Source: a bacterium (GTDB lineage Bacteria; B130-G9). Taken from it: a stretch of DNA of 23,573 nucleotides. Positions 6,072-12,983 of the stretch are shown here, piece by piece. The position numbers were made by a program, and so were the translations under genes. The stretch spans positions 1 through 23,573 of the forward strand of contig JAGHCW010000093.1 of NCBI GenBank assembly GCA_021160245.1, read 5' to 3'. Every line of letters starts with the position of its first letter. Position 1 is the first letter of the stretch. A model generated the notes under the pieces. That model was not told where the DNA came from. It saw only the letters and a list, made by a program, of their open reading frames with translations, and made no database searches.

Positions 6072-6365
6072 TTGGTGGCAGAGGCATTTGCTGAGTCGTT
6101 AATAGAAGTCATCTTGACAGTGATAGCAGCACAGGTTTCATATTACTTGAGAATCACTAGGGCAATCGCTCGCGCGTTCTGCCCCACCCCCCATAATCAG
6201 ATGTTTCGGCTCCATTATTATGTCCCCGCCCCAATACTGCGCCCAACACGATGGCCAATTCCGAGATCAGGCCGGCTCGCCCTCGCGCCTCTTACAGTGA
6301 CCCGCGCTTTGATCCCTACACAATTGCCTGGGCGCTTTGCGCCGGCTGCGTTTGAGATTACGTGA
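6072..6365 (+). CDS. Doubtful small ORF, possibly a leader protein of the ABC operon
   Basis: The 97-codon frame has GGAGGT at 6060-6065, 7 nt before TTG 6072 (10 nt before GTG 6075), and its TGA overlaps the ABC ATPase ATG as TGATG, a common sign of translational coupling. The N-terminal third (VAEAFAESLIEVILTVIAAQ) could be a membrane helix. The rest is rich in Pro, Arg and Ala and matches no family I know, which is typical of an out-of-frame reading. A competing frame at 6251-6355 encodes a 34-residue peptide containing ASYSDPRFDPYTIAWALCAG, so a frameshifted relic is also possible. No function can be proposed. Confidence 0.3.
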   Translation: MVAEAFAESLIEVILTVIAAQVSYYLRITRAIARAFCPTPHNQMFRLHYYVPAPILRPTRWPIPRSGRLALAPLTVTRALIPTQLPGRFAPAAFEIT

Positions 6366-7303
6366 TGAGAAGCGTCATTGAGATAGAAGGGCTTGAAAAG
6401 GTTTACAGATCGGGCGTTCGACGGCGAAATATCCACGCCCTAGATGGCCTAGACCTCTCTGTCGCAGAGAACGAGATATTTGGTTTTCTAGGCCCTAATG
6501 GGGCAGGCAAGACGACAACGCTTAAGATTTTGACCGGACTGCTGTTTCAGACGTCGGGCACGGCGCGCGTCCTGGGCAAGGCCGCCGGGGACTTATCCAC
6601 AAAGGCTCAGATGGGGTTCTTACCAGAGAGTCCCCATTTTTATGAATATCTGACAAGTCGAGAGCTTTTAGACTTTTACTGCCGGCTGTTTCGCATTCAC
6701 AAGGCGAGCCGGCGCAAGAAAGTGGATGAGCTCTTAGCTAGTGTAGGGCTTGAGCACGCGGCGGATCTCCGAGTAAGGAAACACTCTCAAGGCATGAAGC
6801 AGCGGCTTGGAATCGCCCAAAGCCTTGTGGGTAATCCCAAGGTCCTTCTGTTGGACGAGCCGATGTCCGGGCTTGACCCGATGGGCCGGCGGCAGATCAG
6901 GGAGATGATACGAAAGCTCGCCTCAGATGGCATGACGATTTTCTTCAGTTCACACATTCTCTCGGACGCGGAGTTGCTCTGCGACCGGGTGGGGATATTG
7001 GTGAAGGGACGTCTTGTGGACGTTGGGAAGATGGCGGATATACTCAAGCCGAGAATGGGTCTCTTTGAGGCGATAGCATCTGGCGTTGATGGCGCTTGCA
7101 GGGAGCGGCTTGAGGGTATCTGCAAGAGAGTGGCGCTCCGGGATGACAGGCTGCACCTCGAGATTTCGGGTGAGGATAATCTCAGGGAGGCTGAAAGAGC
7201 AATAATCGAGGCGGGTGGAGTTTTGGACTCTCTTTCACGGATGCGGACGACGCTCGAGGACCATTTCATGGAGTTTCTCAAGCCGGACGAGGCGGCCAAA
7301 TAA
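6365..7303 (+). CDS. ABC transporter ATP-binding protein (ABC-2 exporter type)
   Basis: A 312-residue ATPase with Walker A GPNGAGKTTT (K49), a signature HSQGM (residues 140-144, with His in place of the usual Leu), Walker B VLLLDEP (D164, E165), D-loop SGLDP and H-loop His197. The last ~90 residues form the C-terminal extension typical of ATPases paired with ABC-2 permeases (gliding/NatA/CcmA-like). ATG 6365 is preferred over GTG 6362; the ATG overlaps the preceding TGA. It shares the TAATG junction with the permease gene, so the two surely work together at the inner membrane. The exported substrate (lipid, polysaccharide, drug or peptide) cannot be deduced. Confidence 0.93.
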   Translation: MRSVIEIEGLEKVYRSGVRRRNIHALDGLDLSVAENEIFGFLGPNGAGKTTTLKILTGLLFQTSGTARVLGKAAGDLSTKAQMGFLPESPHFYEYLTSRELLDFYCRLFRIHKASRRKKVDELLASVGLEHAADLRVRKHSQGMKQRLGIAQSLVGNPKVLLLDEPMSGLDPMGRRQIREMIRKLASDGMTIFFSSHILSDAELLCDRVGILVKGRLVDVGKMADILKPRMGLFEAIASGVDGACRERLEGICKRVALRDDRLHLEISGEDNLREAERAIIEAGGVLDSLSRMRTTLEDHFMEFLKPDEAAK

Positions 7304-8067
7304 TGAGAACATGGGCTCTTTGCTTGAATACTTTCAGAGAGACAGTTCGGGACAAGGTCTTTTTGGTTCTCGTAGTGTTTGCGCTCGTGATGATCATGTC
7401 TTCTCGGATATTCAGCTTTCTCTCGGTGGGGCTGGAGCTGAAGATAGTGATGGACTTGGGGCTTGGGAGCATTTCGGTATTCAGTCTTTTGATTGCGCTG
7501 TTTGTCGGAACTACCTTGGTTCATAAGGAGATCGACAAGCGGACAGTTTACACGATTGTGTCGAAGCCCATTCGAAGGTACCAGTTCATTATCGGCAAGT
7601 ATGCCGGCCTGAATATGACGATTCTGGTGAATATGGCGATCATGACGGGCTTCTTTTATCTATCAATTTGGTTGATGGGTGGCAGTTGGTCACTTGACTT
7701 GGGGCTTTGCATTCTGCTTATATACGTTGAAATTATGTTAGTAACCGGACTTGCGCTGCTATTTTCTACTTTCGCCTCTCCGACGCTTAGCGCGGTTTTC
7801 ACTTTCCTCACCTATGTATTGGGTCATTTATCCAGCGATCTGAAGTTCTTTTCGGAGCAGTCGGAGAACATTATTGTAAATATATTCGGCAAGGTCTTCT
7901 ATTACTTGCTTCCTAACTTGTCGAAGTTCAATTTCAAGAATGAAGTTGTTCACGGTTTTGCGATTCCAATGGATAGTCTTTTCTATTCAATTGTTTATGG
8001 TTTGCTATATTGTGCGTTACTTGTGATCGTTTCATCGCTCATATTTGAGCGTAAGAACCTCAGATGA
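7303..8067 (+). CDS. ABC-2 family transporter permease
   Basis: A 254-residue protein with about six hydrophobic helices. The first follows an N-terminal cytoplasmic segment containing NTFRETVRDKVFLVLVVFAL, typical of ABC-2 permeases; next come a helix with GSISVFSLLIALFVG and the loop VHKEIDKRTVYTIVSKPIRR, a conserved coupling segment of this subfamily. Later helices include LVTGLALLFSTFASPTLSAV. The ATG overlaps the TAA of the ATPase gene by one base. It presumably forms a homodimeric membrane channel driven by the upstream ATPase. It is shorter than permeases with large periplasmic domains, so a simple two-gene exporter is likely. A tRNA gene follows 25 bp after the stop. Confidence 0.9.
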   Translation: MRTWALCLNTFRETVRDKVFLVLVVFALVMIMSSRIFSFLSVGLELKIVMDLGLGSISVFSLLIALFVGTTLVHKEIDKRTVYTIVSKPIRRYQFIIGKYAGLNMTILVNMAIMTGFFYLSIWLMGGSWSLDLGLCILLIYVEIMLVTGLALLFSTFASPTLSAVFTFLTYVLGHLSSDLKFFSEQSENIIVNIFGKVFYYLLPNLSKFNFKNEVVHGFAIPMDSLFYSIVYGLLYCALLVIVSSLIFERKNLR

Positions 8068-8167: not shown

Positions 8168-8282
8168 CGTTCTTTACACCCCCTGGTCGCATTACCATTA
8201 GCTGTAGGAAATAAGGCAACTCTTGAAGGTTTGCATAAGAGGCAGTGTACTCTCTTTATAGATAAGATGGGAGGTGACAGAA

Positions 8283-9026
8283 GTGCCACCCAAGAGTCAG
8301 ACATTTCAGCTGGCACAGCTAGTCAAGCTGCAGGCTATACGGCTGCAAATAGGGAGATTTGAGCAGTCGTTCAAGGCTATTCCCGAGGAGATTGCTACTA
8401 TAGAAAGCAATGCGCATCGGTATGGGGAGGAGATCGAGCAGAACAAGAAGCTAGAACAGAGTATCAATTCACAGTATAGGAGCTATGAGAACGAGATACA
8501 GGACCGCAATAATAAGCTAGCGCAGTATCAGAACCAGCTTTGGGCCGTTAAGACGAACATCGAATACGCCGCCCTTTTGAAGCAGATAGATACTCTGAAG
8601 GGCATGAATGAGATTACAAACGACCAGATATTTCATCTGGAAGAGGAGAAAGAGCAGCTGCTTATCCACAGAGTGGAGAAGGAAAAGGCCTTTGAAGAGG
8701 TCAAGGCAGCAAATGAGAAGAGGGTGGAGGAGCTGGAGCTCAAGCTGAAGAAGGCGCAGAAGGAGCTCGATGTCTTGAGGCAGAAAGAGCAGAGGATAGC
8801 GGCGAGGATACCACAACAGCTCATCTCGCGGTTCAAAAAGATTGCAGAGGCCAGAGAAGGTATCGCAGTTGTCTCGGCAAATGGCGGCATCTGCAATGGC
8901 TGCTTCACCAGCATTCGGCCTCAGGTTTACGACAAGATAAGACAAGGCGGCACGATCGTCCAATGTGAGAGCTGCTCCCGGATATTGTTCTTTGATGTGA
9001 GCCGGGAATCGGGGCAATCATCCTGA
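8283..9026 (+). CDS. CdsZ-like C4-type zinc-ribbon coiled-coil protein (DUF164/zf-RING_7)
   Basis: About 190 residues of continuous Glu/Lys/Gln-rich coiled coil precede a C-terminal zinc ribbon with C204-NG-C207 and C228-ES-C231, the layout of the DUF164/CdsZ family. GTG 8283 is chosen because GGGAGG at 8269-8274 lies 8 nt upstream; the in-frame GTG at 8274 overlaps that ribosome binding site. Characterised relatives include CdsZ, a chaperone of chlamydial type III secretion proteins, and the mycobacterial protein encoded next to an RNase H gene (Rv2229c beside Rv2228c). Here too an RNase H-like gene follows after 16 bp, so the pairing appears conserved. Its role is probably nucleic-acid or protein binding; this is not settled for the family. 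Confidence 0.88.
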   Translation: MPPKSQTFQLAQLVKLQAIRLQIGRFEQSFKAIPEEIATIESNAHRYGEEIEQNKKLEQSINSQYRSYENEIQDRNNKLAQYQNQLWAVKTNIEYAALLKQIDTLKGMNEITNDQIFHLEEEKEQLLIHRVEKEKAFEEVKAANEKRVEELELKLKKAQKELDVLRQKEQRIAARIPQQLISRFKKIAEAREGIAVVSANGGICNGCFTSIRPQVYDKIRQGGTIVQCESCSRILFFDVSRESGQSS

Positions 9027-9042
9027 CGATGATCGAGCCCCA

Positions 9043-10410
9043 ATGACGGCTGATACCGACTCTAAAGTGCCCGAGTCCGCCAAGATTTGGATTGATGGCG
9101 GCTCTAAAGGCAACCCCGGTCCCTCCGCAATCGGCTATGTCATAAAATCAGCAGACAACAAGGTCCTTGTGGCTAAGGGCAAATGCATCGGTGATACTAC
9201 GAATAACGTCGCTGAGTACAAAGCGCTGCTTACTGCCCTCGAGCACGCCAGCCGCCTCGGAACAAAGAAGATCTTCGTCCGCTCCGATTCCAAACTCGTT
9301 GTGAATCAATTGACTGGTAGGTGGAAGGTCAAAGACGAGCGAATCATACGCCTTTGTTCTGCTTGTTTGCGCGCGTCCAACGGTTTCGATGTATTCCGGA
9401 TTGAGCACGTTCCCCGAGAGCAGAATACCGAGGCGGACAAGCTAGTTCGAGACGCGCTCAAGACCAAGGGCAAGAAAGAGGCAAGTTCGGCCAAATGCAG
9501 ATTCAAAGCGGATGGGATCATCTATATTGCGGGCGACTCTAAGGGCGCCTCAGGCCACGCCGCGGCCTCCTATGTCATCGTTACGCCCGATGACAAGGTG
9601 CTCGCGATAAACGCTAGATACTTGGGCAAGCGGCCCCAAAACATTCCTGAATATGCTGCCGTGTATCTTGCCGCGAAGAACGCCAAGGAACTGGGCCTCG
9701 ATAAGATTATTATCCGCATGGATAACACACTTGTCGCAAAGCAGCTTTGCGGTGAGTTCAAGGTTAAGAGCGAGAGGCTGATAAAGCCGCATTCTGATTG
9801 TGCGGAGGCTCTGAAGGGCTTTGGGAAGCATGGAATAGAGATTATCCCACGCTCGACAAACAAAGTCACCCACCGCATGTCTTGCGAGGCGATACGGGAC
9901 TACGAGAAGGAGGAGCGGCAAGAGGGATCCGAAATCTCGCCTGAGCGCAGCTTCAAGCCCGACGGGATCATAAGTGTCGCTGGCATCTCAAAGGGCGTCT
10001 CTGATTACGCTGCTGTCGCTTATGTAATTTCCGCGTTAGATGAAACGGTGCTCGCGGTAAGTGCTAGATACTTGGGGCTGCGGCCGTCCAATGTGGCAGA
10101 ATATGCGGCCGTGTATTACGCTGCAAAGAAGGCCGGTGAACTTGGCTTAAGCAAGATCGTCATCCGAACGGACAGCAAGCTCGTCGCAAAGCAGCTCAGC
10201 GGAGAGTTCAAGGTCAAGAGCGAGAATCTGAAGAAACCGTACGCCGTGTGTATGCGGGCGTTAGAGGACTTCGAGAACTATGAAATAGAGGCAATATCGC
10301 GCGAGGCCAACGAGACGACCCGCCGTATGGCTTCTGAGGCGATAAGTGCTCATGAAAAAGATGAGTTAAACGGGGATTCGCCCGATGGGAAGAAGGAGGG
10401 GGAACCATAG
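9043..10410 (+). CDS. Triple RNase HI-like domain protein, two domains with degenerate active sites
   Basis: The 455 residues contain three tandem RNase H folds (about 12-140, 155-290 and 305-440) joined by charged linkers. Domain 1 has the full DEDD set: D18 (IDGGSKGNPG), E58 (AEYKALLTAL), D82 (SDSK) and D132 (EADKL), so it should cleave RNA in RNA/DNA hybrids. In domain 2 the first Asp is A163 and the last is H277, while E203 and D227 remain. In domain 3 they are A313 and R427, with E353 and D377 kept. Domains 2 and 3 are very alike (both have KLVAKQL or TLVAKQL followed by GEFKVKSE), indicating a later duplication after loss of activity. They may bind hybrids without cutting. The ribosome binding site is weak; the gene follows the zinc-ribbon gene by 16 bp. 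Bacterial RNase HI is normally ~150 residues. Confidence 0.9.
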   Translation: MTADTDSKVPESAKIWIDGGSKGNPGPSAIGYVIKSADNKVLVAKGKCIGDTTNNVAEYKALLTALEHASRLGTKKIFVRSDSKLVVNQLTGRWKVKDERIIRLCSACLRASNGFDVFRIEHVPREQNTEADKLVRDALKTKGKKEASSAKCRFKADGIIYIAGDSKGASGHAAASYVIVTPDDKVLAINARYLGKRPQNIPEYAAVYLAAKNAKELGLDKIIIRMDNTLVAKQLCGEFKVKSERLIKPHSDCAEALKGFGKHGIEIIPRSTNKVTHRMSCEAIRDYEKEERQEGSEISPERSFKPDGIISVAGISKGVSDYAAVAYVISALDETVLAVSARYLGLRPSNVAEYAAVYYAAKKAGELGLSKIVIRTDSKLVAKQLSGEFKVKSENLKKPYAVCMRALEDFENYEIEAISREANETTRRMASEAISAHEKDELNGDSPDGKKEGEP

Positions 10411-10469: not shown

Positions 10470-10557
10470 ACAAGCCACTGAGAGTTTTTTTGACGTTACC
10501 CGTGTAGCGGGCTTTTGGATTTTGTTTTACATCTCACACCAGGTCATGGAGGTATTG

Positions 10558-12009
10558 ATGTCAGCAAGTAACGGAAGGATGAGAGAGATCGTCTCGCTGC
10601 TAGCGATATTCGTCGTTACAATGGCGCTTTGGGGCTGCGATGAGCCACAACAGGGCACAGGTATGCCGCCTGCTAATGCTCCTGTCGCAAGCCAGCCAGC
10701 AGGCGATCGGCCGGCGCCAAGTTCGTCGGAGCCGGGGGCCATCTTGGCTCAGATAGGTGATATTGTTATATCGGAGGCGGACCTGGAGCAGGAGATTGGG
10801 GATATTCCGGTCTACATGCAGAGCAAGTTCAAAACCAAGAGCGGCCGGATTGACCTGCTCAACAAGATGGTGGAGAACGAGCTCTTGGCCAGGGCCGCGC
10901 AGGATGCAGGGCTGGACAAGGACCCGGCGGTCAGGCGGAAGATCGAGGATTCTCGAAAGAAGATTCTTCAGAACGAGTATTACAGCCAGTTCATGAAGAA
11001 CAGCGTGGGAGTACCCGATGCGAAGATACTTGAGTATTACGAGGCCAACAAAGACAAGTACAAGACGAAGGCAAGAGCTCGGGTGCGGATGATAACCTTT
11101 GATAACGAGGCAGCGGCGAAGAAGACGCTTGAGGATGTTCGCAGCAAGCCGGAGAGCTTTGAGGCCCTCGCGAAGGAGAGGTCAAAGGACCAGTCAACAG
11201 CAGCATCAGGTGGTTTGCTTGGCTGGGTCACGAACGGCGGCTATATCCGCGGGCTCGGGAAGGACCCGATCGTTAACAAGGCCATCTTCGCGCTTGCGGA
11301 GAATAAGGTGAGCGACGTGGTGAAGACGAAGAAGGGGACGTTCGTAATCTTGAAAGTGGAGACGCTGGAGCCAGAGAGCTATCGGCCGCTGGACCAGGTC
11401 AAACGGCGCATCGCGGATGAGCTCTTGGTCAATGACAATGAGGTCAAGGGCTATTACGATTCGCACAAAGATGAGTTTATAAGCAAGGAGCGCGTCAAGG
11501 CAAGAGTTGTCGTTTTTGACACGGAGAAGAAGGCAAAACAGGCGAAGAAGCAGCTCAGCAAAAAACTGACTCTCAAGAGCTTCTCAGATTATGCAAAGAA
11601 GCACTCCATCGATAAGACCAATGCCAAGAATGGCGGGTATCTTGGGTATATCACTAAGGGAAGATATATCCCCGGTATCGGCCGAGACCCTGGATTGGAG
11701 ACGGTTCTCTTTTCTCTTGCCGAGAATCAGATGACCGATCCCGTTAAGACCAAGAAAGGATGGAGCATTTTCTATGCTGAGAGCAAAGAGGATGCTAAGC
11801 TCAAACCTCTTGACCGCGTGAGAACCTTGATCACGAATAAGCTTCGCCGCAAGATGCGTGAGAGCTCACAGACAGAGGCTATGGATAACCTCAAGAAGAA
11901 GTACAACTGCCAGGTCTTTGACGATCGAGTTGGCGGGTCTCAAGACGATGCGTCTTCCAGTTCATCAGAGGACATTCGCAACGTTTTCAAGCCAAGAAGA
12001 GGCAGGTAA
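10558..12009 (+). CDS. PpiC/SurA-type lipoprotein with two parvulin domains
   Basis: ATG 10558 has GGAGG at 10548-10552. The N-terminus is a lipoprotein signal peptide (VSLLAIFVVTMALWGC, lipidated Cys27) followed by Asp28, the +2 residue that in Enterobacteria favours retention on the inner membrane. A Pro/Ser-rich linker leads to a SurA_N-like helical region (~65-165: ISEADLEQEI, MVENELLARAAQDAGL). Two parvulin rotamase domains follow at about 170-275 and 310-415, each with the pattern FEALAKERSKDQ/SDYAKKHSIDKT, then GGLLGWV/GGYLGYI and a VKTKKG core. It probably folds or escorts exported proteins, as SurA, PrsA and PpiD do. The tail is acidic/serine-rich then basic (FKPRRGR). Confidence 0.92.
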   Translation: MSASNGRMREIVSLLAIFVVTMALWGCDEPQQGTGMPPANAPVASQPAGDRPAPSSSEPGAILAQIGDIVISEADLEQEIGDIPVYMQSKFKTKSGRIDLLNKMVENELLARAAQDAGLDKDPAVRRKIEDSRKKILQNEYYSQFMKNSVGVPDAKILEYYEANKDKYKTKARARVRMITFDNEAAAKKTLEDVRSKPESFEALAKERSKDQSTAASGGLLGWVTNGGYIRGLGKDPIVNKAIFALAENKVSDVVKTKKGTFVILKVETLEPESYRPLDQVKRRIADELLVNDNEVKGYYDSHKDEFISKERVKARVVVFDTEKKAKQAKKQLSKKLTLKSFSDYAKKHSIDKTNAKNGGYLGYITKGRYIPGIGRDPGLETVLFSLAENQMTDPVKTKKGWSIFYAESKEDAKLKPLDRVRTLITNKLRRKMRESSQTEAMDNLKKKYNCQVFDDRVGGSQDDASSSSSEDIRNVFKPRRGR

Positions 12010-12022
12010 AAAATAGCGGAAT

Positions 12023-12250
12023 ATGAAAGCAACTGAGAAGAGAAGACGGCAACCAGGCGGTCCCCAAGACGGCACTGACACGGCCGATGAGCGGCCGGAT
12101 TCGGGATCTGATGATCCCGAGGCTGAGCGGCATCTGGAGTTTTTGGTCCTGATGGTTCTGTTGTTCATGTTGCTTTGTGTACTGATTATACCTGGGAGTT
12201 GGCTCAATTCCGCCTCGATGTGGTTTGGGGCTCATGTTCCGGGGCTTTAG
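12023..12250 (+). CDS. Small single-pass membrane protein of unknown function
   Basis: A 75-residue frame beginning 14 bp after the parvulin gene. The first ~38 residues are hydrophilic and charged; residues ~40-58 form a strongly hydrophobic helix (FLVLMVLLFMLLCVLIIPGS). The ribosome binding site is weak (AGCGGA). I recognise no family. Its position suggests co-transcription with the parvulin lipoprotein, and the clear membrane segment argues that it is real. Its coding sequence contains a perfect 8-bp hairpin. Confidence 0.55.
   Translation: MKATEKRRRQPGGPQDGTDTADERPDSGSDDPEAERHLEFLVLMVLLFMLLCVLIIPGSWLNSASMWFGAHVPGL
12101..12120 (+). repeat. Perfect 20-bp hairpin inside the small membrane-protein gene
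   Basis: TCGGGATC and GATCCCGA form an 8-bp stem around TGAT. It is preceded by two copies of CGGCCG at 12081-12097. It may act on translation or transcript end formation; no T tract follows. Confidence 0.5.
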
Positions 12251-12271
12251 TGAGAAGAGAAATAAGAAATC

Positions 12272-12343
12272 GCCGGCGTAGCTCAGTGGTAGAGCAGCTG
12301 ATTCGTAATCAGCAGGTCGTAGGTTCAACCCCTATCGCCGGCT
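12272..12343 (+). tRNA. tRNA-Thr (CGT anticodon)
   Basis: Acceptor GCCGGCG/CGCCGGC, D-stem GCTC/GAGC, anticodon stem GCTGA/TCAGC with loop TTCGTAA (anticodon 12304-12306), T-stem GTAGG/CCTAT with one G-T pair and loop TTCAACC. The discriminator is T and no CCA is encoded, unlike the other tRNA in this window. It lies 28 bp before the S20 gene. Confidence 0.95.
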
Positions 12344-12371
12344 TTTCCTCTAAAATGATAGGAGAGTATAG

Positions 12372-12983
12372 GTGCCGACACATAAGAGCGCAATGAAACG
12401 TCTCCGGCAAAGCGAGATACGGAGATTGCGTAATCGCTCTCGGAAGAGCATGGTGAAAACGGCGGTTAAGAAGATCGATGCCGCTATGGTGACAGGGGAG
12501 AATGTCGATAAAGAGAAGATGGCCGTTTTGTATAAGGACGCCGTTGCTCGAATCGCCAAGACCTCCGCTAAAGGAACGCTGCACAAGAGGACAGCGAGCA
12601 GGATGACAAGCCGCCTTGCTCTCTCGGTCAACAAGGTCATGGGGAAGAACTGGCTTTGCGAGCGACCTAGCCCGACTCCTGCCGCTCCCGTTGTGGCGCC
12701 TGACCACTTGGAAACTACGCCGGATGTTGCAGCGACTGAGAGCGTATCGGAAGTTGCCCCGGTCGAGACGGCGATTGTTGAAGATGCGGTCGAGTCCCCA
12801 GTGGTTGAGCCCGATGCCGAGACATCTGCCGCCTCGGAGGAGGAAGCATCCACTGCGTCCACGGAAGAGGATTTGAAGCCGCCAACCGCCGCGGACGATG
12901 ATGCTCCCCAGGTCGATGCCTTGTCCGAGGAAAAGGCCGATTCCGAATCTGATTCTGAGCAGGCGACGAAGCCGAGCGAATAG
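12372..12983 (+). CDS. rpsT: Small ribosomal subunit protein S20 with a long acidic C-terminal extension
   Basis: Residues 1 to ~93 are S20: PTHKSAMKRLRQSEIRRLRN, then RKSMVKTAVKKID, and the core THKRTASRM-like LHKRTASRMTSRLALSVNKV. S20 binds 16S rRNA helices in the 30S body and is normally 85-95 residues. Here the frame continues for about 110 more residues rich in Glu, Asp, Ser, Ala, Pro and Thr, with about 30 acidic against four Lys/Arg residues, so the tail is predicted to be disordered. The start is GTG 12372 with AGGAGAG at 12360-12366. The tail's biased, frame-consistent composition argues against simple read-through of a lost stop. Its role is unknown. Confidence 0.93.
   Translation: MPTHKSAMKRLRQSEIRRLRNRSRKSMVKTAVKKIDAAMVTGENVDKEKMAVLYKDAVARIAKTSAKGTLHKRTASRMTSRLALSVNKVMGKNWLCERPSPTPAAPVVAPDHLETTPDVAATESVSEVAPVETAIVEDAVESPVVEPDAETSAASEEEASTASTEEDLKPPTAADDDAPQVDALSEEKADSESDSEQATKPSE

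Follow-up and report, generated by a model that had tools for sequence, protein, structure and literature searches.

A 455-aa open reading frame (ORF) on the forward strand at positions 9043–10410 of the 23,573-nucleotide stretch of bacterial DNA analyzed here (the window) encodes three RVT_3/RNase HI domains, the first with an intact active site and the second and third with disabled ones. Such conserved, catalytically degenerate ("dead") RNase H copies are real and are unusual for a cellular RNase HI, and we infer that they have a functional role. By analogy, they are best read as a pseudo-RNase H appendage that may be convergent with the connection domain of retroviral reverse transcriptase.

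The ORF contained three stretches matching Pfam RVT_3 (PF13456; 189 bits, E = 2.7e-56). When the genome containing the window (G000) was searched in six frames, the three domains of this gene were the sole RVT_3 matches, each exceeding the curated cut-off of 21.6 bits singly (Table 1). The gene is the only type 1 RNase H detected in the organism; an RNase HII gene is also encoded in G000, away from this locus. Chance or misassembly was ruled out as the source of the triplication, since the copies have diverged (domains 2 and 3 share 60% amino acid and 68% DNA identity) and the three-domain protein recurs in an independent genome, G002. The Pfam scan of the ORF returned only RVT_3/RNase_H and no reverse transcriptase, and the hybrid-binding domain (HBD; dsRHbd) family was absent at E values up to 1. 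Assignment to the bifunctional RNase H/acid phosphatase family (NF005567) was rejected, with a score of 258.6 bits against a cut-off of 326 and no phosphatase domain in Pfam.

Domain 1 contains the GNPG and TNN-x-EY motifs (N24, T53–N55) in addition to the full D-E-D-D set, and its closest solved relatives are the RNase H domain of Rv2228c (3hst) and Halobacterium RNase H1 (4e19). Its sequence, fold, and DEDD residues place it with the RVT_3-type RNases HI, which also include LC11-RNase H1 (3u3g/4h8k) and the Sulfolobus enzyme (2ehg/3aly), but each of these contains only one RNase H domain. Domains 2 and 3 belong to the RNase H family by their RVT_3 scores and lack a complete DEDD set. The alignment bore out the first-pass annotation of this DNA, which had assigned all four carboxylates to domain 1 and noted the loss of the first and last Asp from domains 2 and 3. 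Its further statement that the middle Glu and Asp are kept held for both dead domains of the window but is not absolute among relatives.

Table 1. Features of the window in and around the three-domain RNase H gene, with RVT_3 scores from the six-frame search of G000
Feature	Position	Strand	Details
ABC transporter ATPase and permease genes	6362..8067	+	Conserved further upstream
Coiled-coil and C4 zinc-ribbon gene	8274..9026	+	Zn_ribbon_9; weak CdsZ/CT398 similarity; 16 bp upstream of the RNase H gene
Domain 1, intact	9073..9468	+	D18, E58, D82, D132, loop His H122; RVT_3 89.7 bits
Domain 1 carboxylate codons	D18 9094-9096; E58 9214-9216; D82 9286-9288; D132 9436-9438	+	
Domain 2, degenerate	9502..9915	+	A163 (9529-9531), E203, D227, H277 (9871-9873); RVT_3 50.0 bits
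Domain 3, degenerate	9952..10365	+	A313 (9979-9981), E353, D377, R427 (10321-10323); RVT_3 58.5 bits
SurA-like double-PPIase gene, tRNA, ribosomal protein S20 gene	10522..12980	+	Downstream; same order in G002
SurA-like lipoprotein, two PPIC-type PPIase domains	10522-12009	+	Conserved in G002
Ribosomal protein S20 gene	12372-12983	+	203 aa; S20 family match at residues 3-87

The same kind of protein, with an intact domain 1 followed by one or two dead domains, was present in all four genomes sampled from the host phylum (G000–G003; one family, three genera). Two dead domains were found in G000 (455 aa) and G002 (484 aa), and one in G001 and G003 (312 aa). In every domain following domain 1 in the four genomes, six in all, the first Asp was replaced by Ala and the last by Arg or His. 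The middle residues were more variable, with Asp replacing the Glu in G002 domain 2 and Asn replacing the Asp in G001 domain 2. In 386 bacterial genomes searched with RVT_3 and a dead-domain profile, at thresholds that more degenerate copies could escape, no tandem RNase H gene was found outside this family. Beyond the family, the dead-domain profile gave at most one match per genome, and where two RVT_3 matches occurred (six genomes), they were all on separate contigs or far apart. No relative was found among phages and viral contigs, and plasmids yielded three weak single-domain matches. Separately, RNase HI domains were seen fused to a DAHP synthase (L057:574-1902) and to a YgbB/IspF family enzyme (L049:1492-2505), and three further open frames (L007:1486-2559, L009:1498-2610, and L054:1495-2973) combined an RNase HI domain with approximately 225–360 upstream residues that had no Pfam match.

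Structure prediction indicated that the dead domains should retain the fold. The full-length AlphaFold2 model (mean pLDDT 91.5, pTM 0.48) contained three complete RNase H folds of uncertain relative orientation, joined via long C-terminal helices (residues 129–149 and 270–295). Domain 3, modeled from a 28-row alignment, was likewise predicted to form a complete RNase H fold (mean pLDDT 96.2, pTM 0.90) and gave Z values of 21.0–23.4 against the archaeal and bacterial RNases HI 4e19, 3hst, 3aly, 3u3g, 4h8k (hybrid complex), and 2ehg.

To define what the dead domains have lost and gained, we compared the columns of the six dead domains with those of 46 canonical RNase HI sequences, using domain 1 numbering. 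In addition to the first and last Asp, residues N24 and P25 of the GNPG loop and T53 and N54 of the TNN motif were kept in none of the six, and the loop His was lost in five and kept in one. N55, E58, and D82 were each kept in five, and the fold positions G19, G50, Y59, L85, Q89, G92, V96, R125, and N128 in all six. Because the first Asp is gone, both metal sites are broken in the dead domains, and the remaining Glu and Asp may form pairs with the Arg or His that replaced the last Asp, closing the site. Cleavage has thus probably been lost, and it is exceedingly improbable that these domains retain or have re-evolved catalysis via displaced carboxylates. The Glu and Asp are mostly kept, and D165 lies two residues from A163 in domain 2 of the window, but this position varies among the dead domains (I, G, G, S, and S elsewhere), and the acid gains of the dead clade, located at the beginning of strand 1, at D38 (a distal loop position common to domain 1), and at E99, are all away from the active site. 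Column by column, no conserved substitute carboxylate was found near the active site in the six dead domains; the takeover of the lost positions by nearby acidic residues, which the first-pass annotation had named as counting against its reading, was therefore not seen.

The same comparison bears on the proposal of the annotation that the dead domains could be hybrid-binding modules raising processivity or tethering the enzyme at R-loops. In the canonical version of this reading, they would hold the RNA–DNA hybrid as an RNase H does and raise processivity, comparable to the HBD of eukaryotic RNase H1. We take N24, T53, and N54 of domain 1 as the counterparts of the hybrid-contacting residues N151, T181, and N182 in human RNase H1. 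None of the six dead domains keeps these hybrid-reading positions, and five lack the loop His, so that hybrid reading in the canonical way has probably been impaired along with catalysis. In favor of canonical binding are the intact RNase H fold of the model, the E203/D227-type residues that are mostly kept, and the precedent of Drosophila RNase H1, whose second, divergent hybrid-binding-like domain raises turnover (PMC7657459). However, the loss of every N151/T181/N182-equivalent position and the erasure of the GNPG loop weaken it, and in its canonical form we consider it improbable.

Basic residues were gained in the dead domains at T52 (Arg or Lys in 6/6), E67 (Lys in 6/6), and R103 (Lys in 6/6), besides the Arg or His at the last Asp. 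In the window, R197 and K212 of domain 2 and R347 and K362 of domain 3 are conserved among dead domains. The net charge of the dead domains ranged from -1 to +10, indicating that they are not uniformly basic. It is conceivable, at a rather low probability, that they constitute a bacterial pseudo-RNase H arm in which the Asp to Arg/His charge swap and the new Arg beside the presumed phosphate pocket turn the metal-dependent active site into a metal-independent nucleic-acid grip controlling the adjacent catalytic RNase H, an independently evolved counterpart of the retroviral "dual RNase H" design.

Phylogenetic analysis of the ten family domains from the four genomes, together with 46 single-domain RNases HI, placed the ten in one clade (95/95), which favors intragenic duplication over foreign acquisition. 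The four first domains grouped together (96/77), and the six dead domains formed a single clade (100/99, recovered in 100% of bootstrap trees) sister to domain 1. As the loss is common to all six dead domains of this clade, it arose a single time, prior to the multiplication of the dead copy and the divergence of the genera. The first-pass annotation had named a clade of domains 2 and 3 as a check and had considered that the loss probably predates the second duplication; the tree agrees with this, the two domains belonging to one dead-domain clade with the dead domains of relatives. The history of the second duplication was less simple. G000 domain 2 paired with G002 domain 3 (99/93 in one tree and 91/88 in another), and simple positional orthology was weakly rejected (AU p 0.034–0.036), whereas independent second duplications were not (AU p 0.07–0.13). 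Either exchange between copies or independent duplication may explain this grouping.

A long stem (1.21 changes per column) leads to the dead clade, and later branch lengths are similar to those of domain 1. Selection was evaluated with the G001/G003 pair, since between-genus pairs were saturated in dS and were left out. In this pair, dN/dS was about 0.19 (95% 0.10–0.34) for domain 1 and about 0.22 (95% 0.12–0.39) for the dead domain. Where dN/dS is measurable, the dead domain is therefore under purifying selection and as constrained as the catalytic domain. An initial burst of change on the stem and subsequent constraint matching that of the catalytic domain would be expected of domains that gained a role. 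The alternative that the dead domains are dead weight, left over neutrally from domain duplication and tolerated without being used, has in its favor that redundancy is the simplest reason for the loss of catalysis and that copy number differs between genomes. One author group has suggested that such degeneration in retroviruses and LTR elements may stem primarily from the elimination of redundancy (PMC10508981). Equal dN/dS of the dead and catalytic domains nevertheless argues that a domain left over in this way then acquired value. This constraint, the full fold, the 39 columns invariant among the six dead domains, and the presence of the protein in 4/4 genomes across three genera make dead weight very unlikely. 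The view of the first-pass annotation that the degenerate domains have been "kept on purpose" is thus supported, and the random erosion of domains 2 and 3 in relatives that would have spoken against it was not observed.

Gene neighborhood analysis revealed that the zinc-ribbon coiled-coil gene immediately upstream, which is probably in the same operon as the RNase H gene, also lies beside the orthologues in G001, G002, and G003. In a motif search, a zinc-ribbon motif protein was found near 17 of the 46 other, unrelated RNase HI loci, so that this neighbor accompanies RNase HI in general; the pattern suggests a general partnership. Downstream, holA, encoding the clamp-loader delta subunit, directly follows the RNase H gene in G001 and G003 (L067:609-1751, L068:1748-2908), with a 4-base overlap in G003, and the SurA-like and S20 genes take its place in G000 and G002. 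The approximately 115 further residues of the window S20 protein form a low-complexity acidic tail, and the G002 S20 orthologue (L069:8635-9177, 180 aa) has an acidic tail too.

These neighbors give some weight to the explanation that the dead domains are protein-docking or oligomerization modules, for the zinc-ribbon coiled-coil protein or the replication machinery, without nucleic-acid contact of their own. The adjacency of the zinc-ribbon gene, conserved in the family, and the position of holA are consistent with docking, as is the loss of hybrid-reading residues in all six dead domains while fold residues are retained. However, the zinc-ribbon neighbor also accompanies single-domain RNase HI, so the extra domains are not required for that association. 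We regard docking as possible, with considerable reservation.

The reading toward which we lean, tentatively, is that of a pseudo-RNase H tether or scaffold, in which the dead domains would either position the active domain or help to retain it. The N-terminal domain 1 is predicted to cut the RNA of RNA–DNA hybrids through the standard two-metal DEDD mechanism. An intragenic duplication of the RNase H domain early in the history of the phylum would have produced a copy in which Ala replaced the first metal-binding Asp and Arg or His the last; with these gone, the copy could hardly bind the two catalytic metals. The resulting pseudo-RNase H would later have multiplied to two copies in some members, and its complete fold, helical linkers, and new conserved basic residues would have been retained under selection. 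As a built-in tether, the non-cleaving RNase H fold could hold nucleic acid by charge contacts, or dock a partner, and thereby position or retain the catalytic domain, as is thought for the retroviral connection domain. The hybrid-reading losses, the charge spread from -1 to +10, the possibility that the new Arg or His serves only to pair with the remaining Glu and Asp, and the variation in dead-copy number between one and two count against a tether.

The closest parallels come from mobile elements. The retroviral reverse transcriptase connection (tether) domain and the dual RNase H proteins of Tat, Chronos, Archon, Odin, and lokiretrovirus elements likewise combine active and degenerate RNase H in one chain, with DEDD lost and the fold kept (PMC10508981, PMC5348765, PMC9040795). 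In retroviruses and LTR elements, the native RNase H, though degenerated, has been described as keeping both the fold and substrate binding (PMC10508981, PMC9040795). The same degenerate fate would have recurred independently in the protein described here, which differs in having no reverse transcriptase or mobile element and a bacterial housekeeping context. Moreover, retroviruses and LTR elements acquired a foreign RNase H, whereas the bacterial copy appears to derive from intragenic duplication, and the active domain stands first in the bacterial protein, followed by up to two dead copies.

Other systems resemble it less closely. RNase H1 enzymes with a hybrid-binding domain (the halodurans enzyme and the Drosophila enzyme with its second HBD-like region; PMC7657459, PMC1950709) also join a catalytic RNase H to accessory domains with possible substrate retention, but the window protein has no HBD, and its accessory domains are themselves RNase H folds. 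Prp8 likewise carries an RNase H-like domain that is inactive, an RNase H fold kept without catalysis and reported to retain RNA binding (PMC5603734), but Prp8 is spliceosomal, has no active RNase H in the chain, and has an unrelated sequence context.

Retroelements already provide examples of degenerate RNase H partners, whose benefit there is debated. A soluble, stand-alone bacterial RNase HI with one or two dead copies under purifying selection would provide a simple system, free of reverse transcription, for testing what such a domain contributes to an active RNase H, and would show that mobile elements are not the only setting in which duplicated RNase H meets a tether-like fate.
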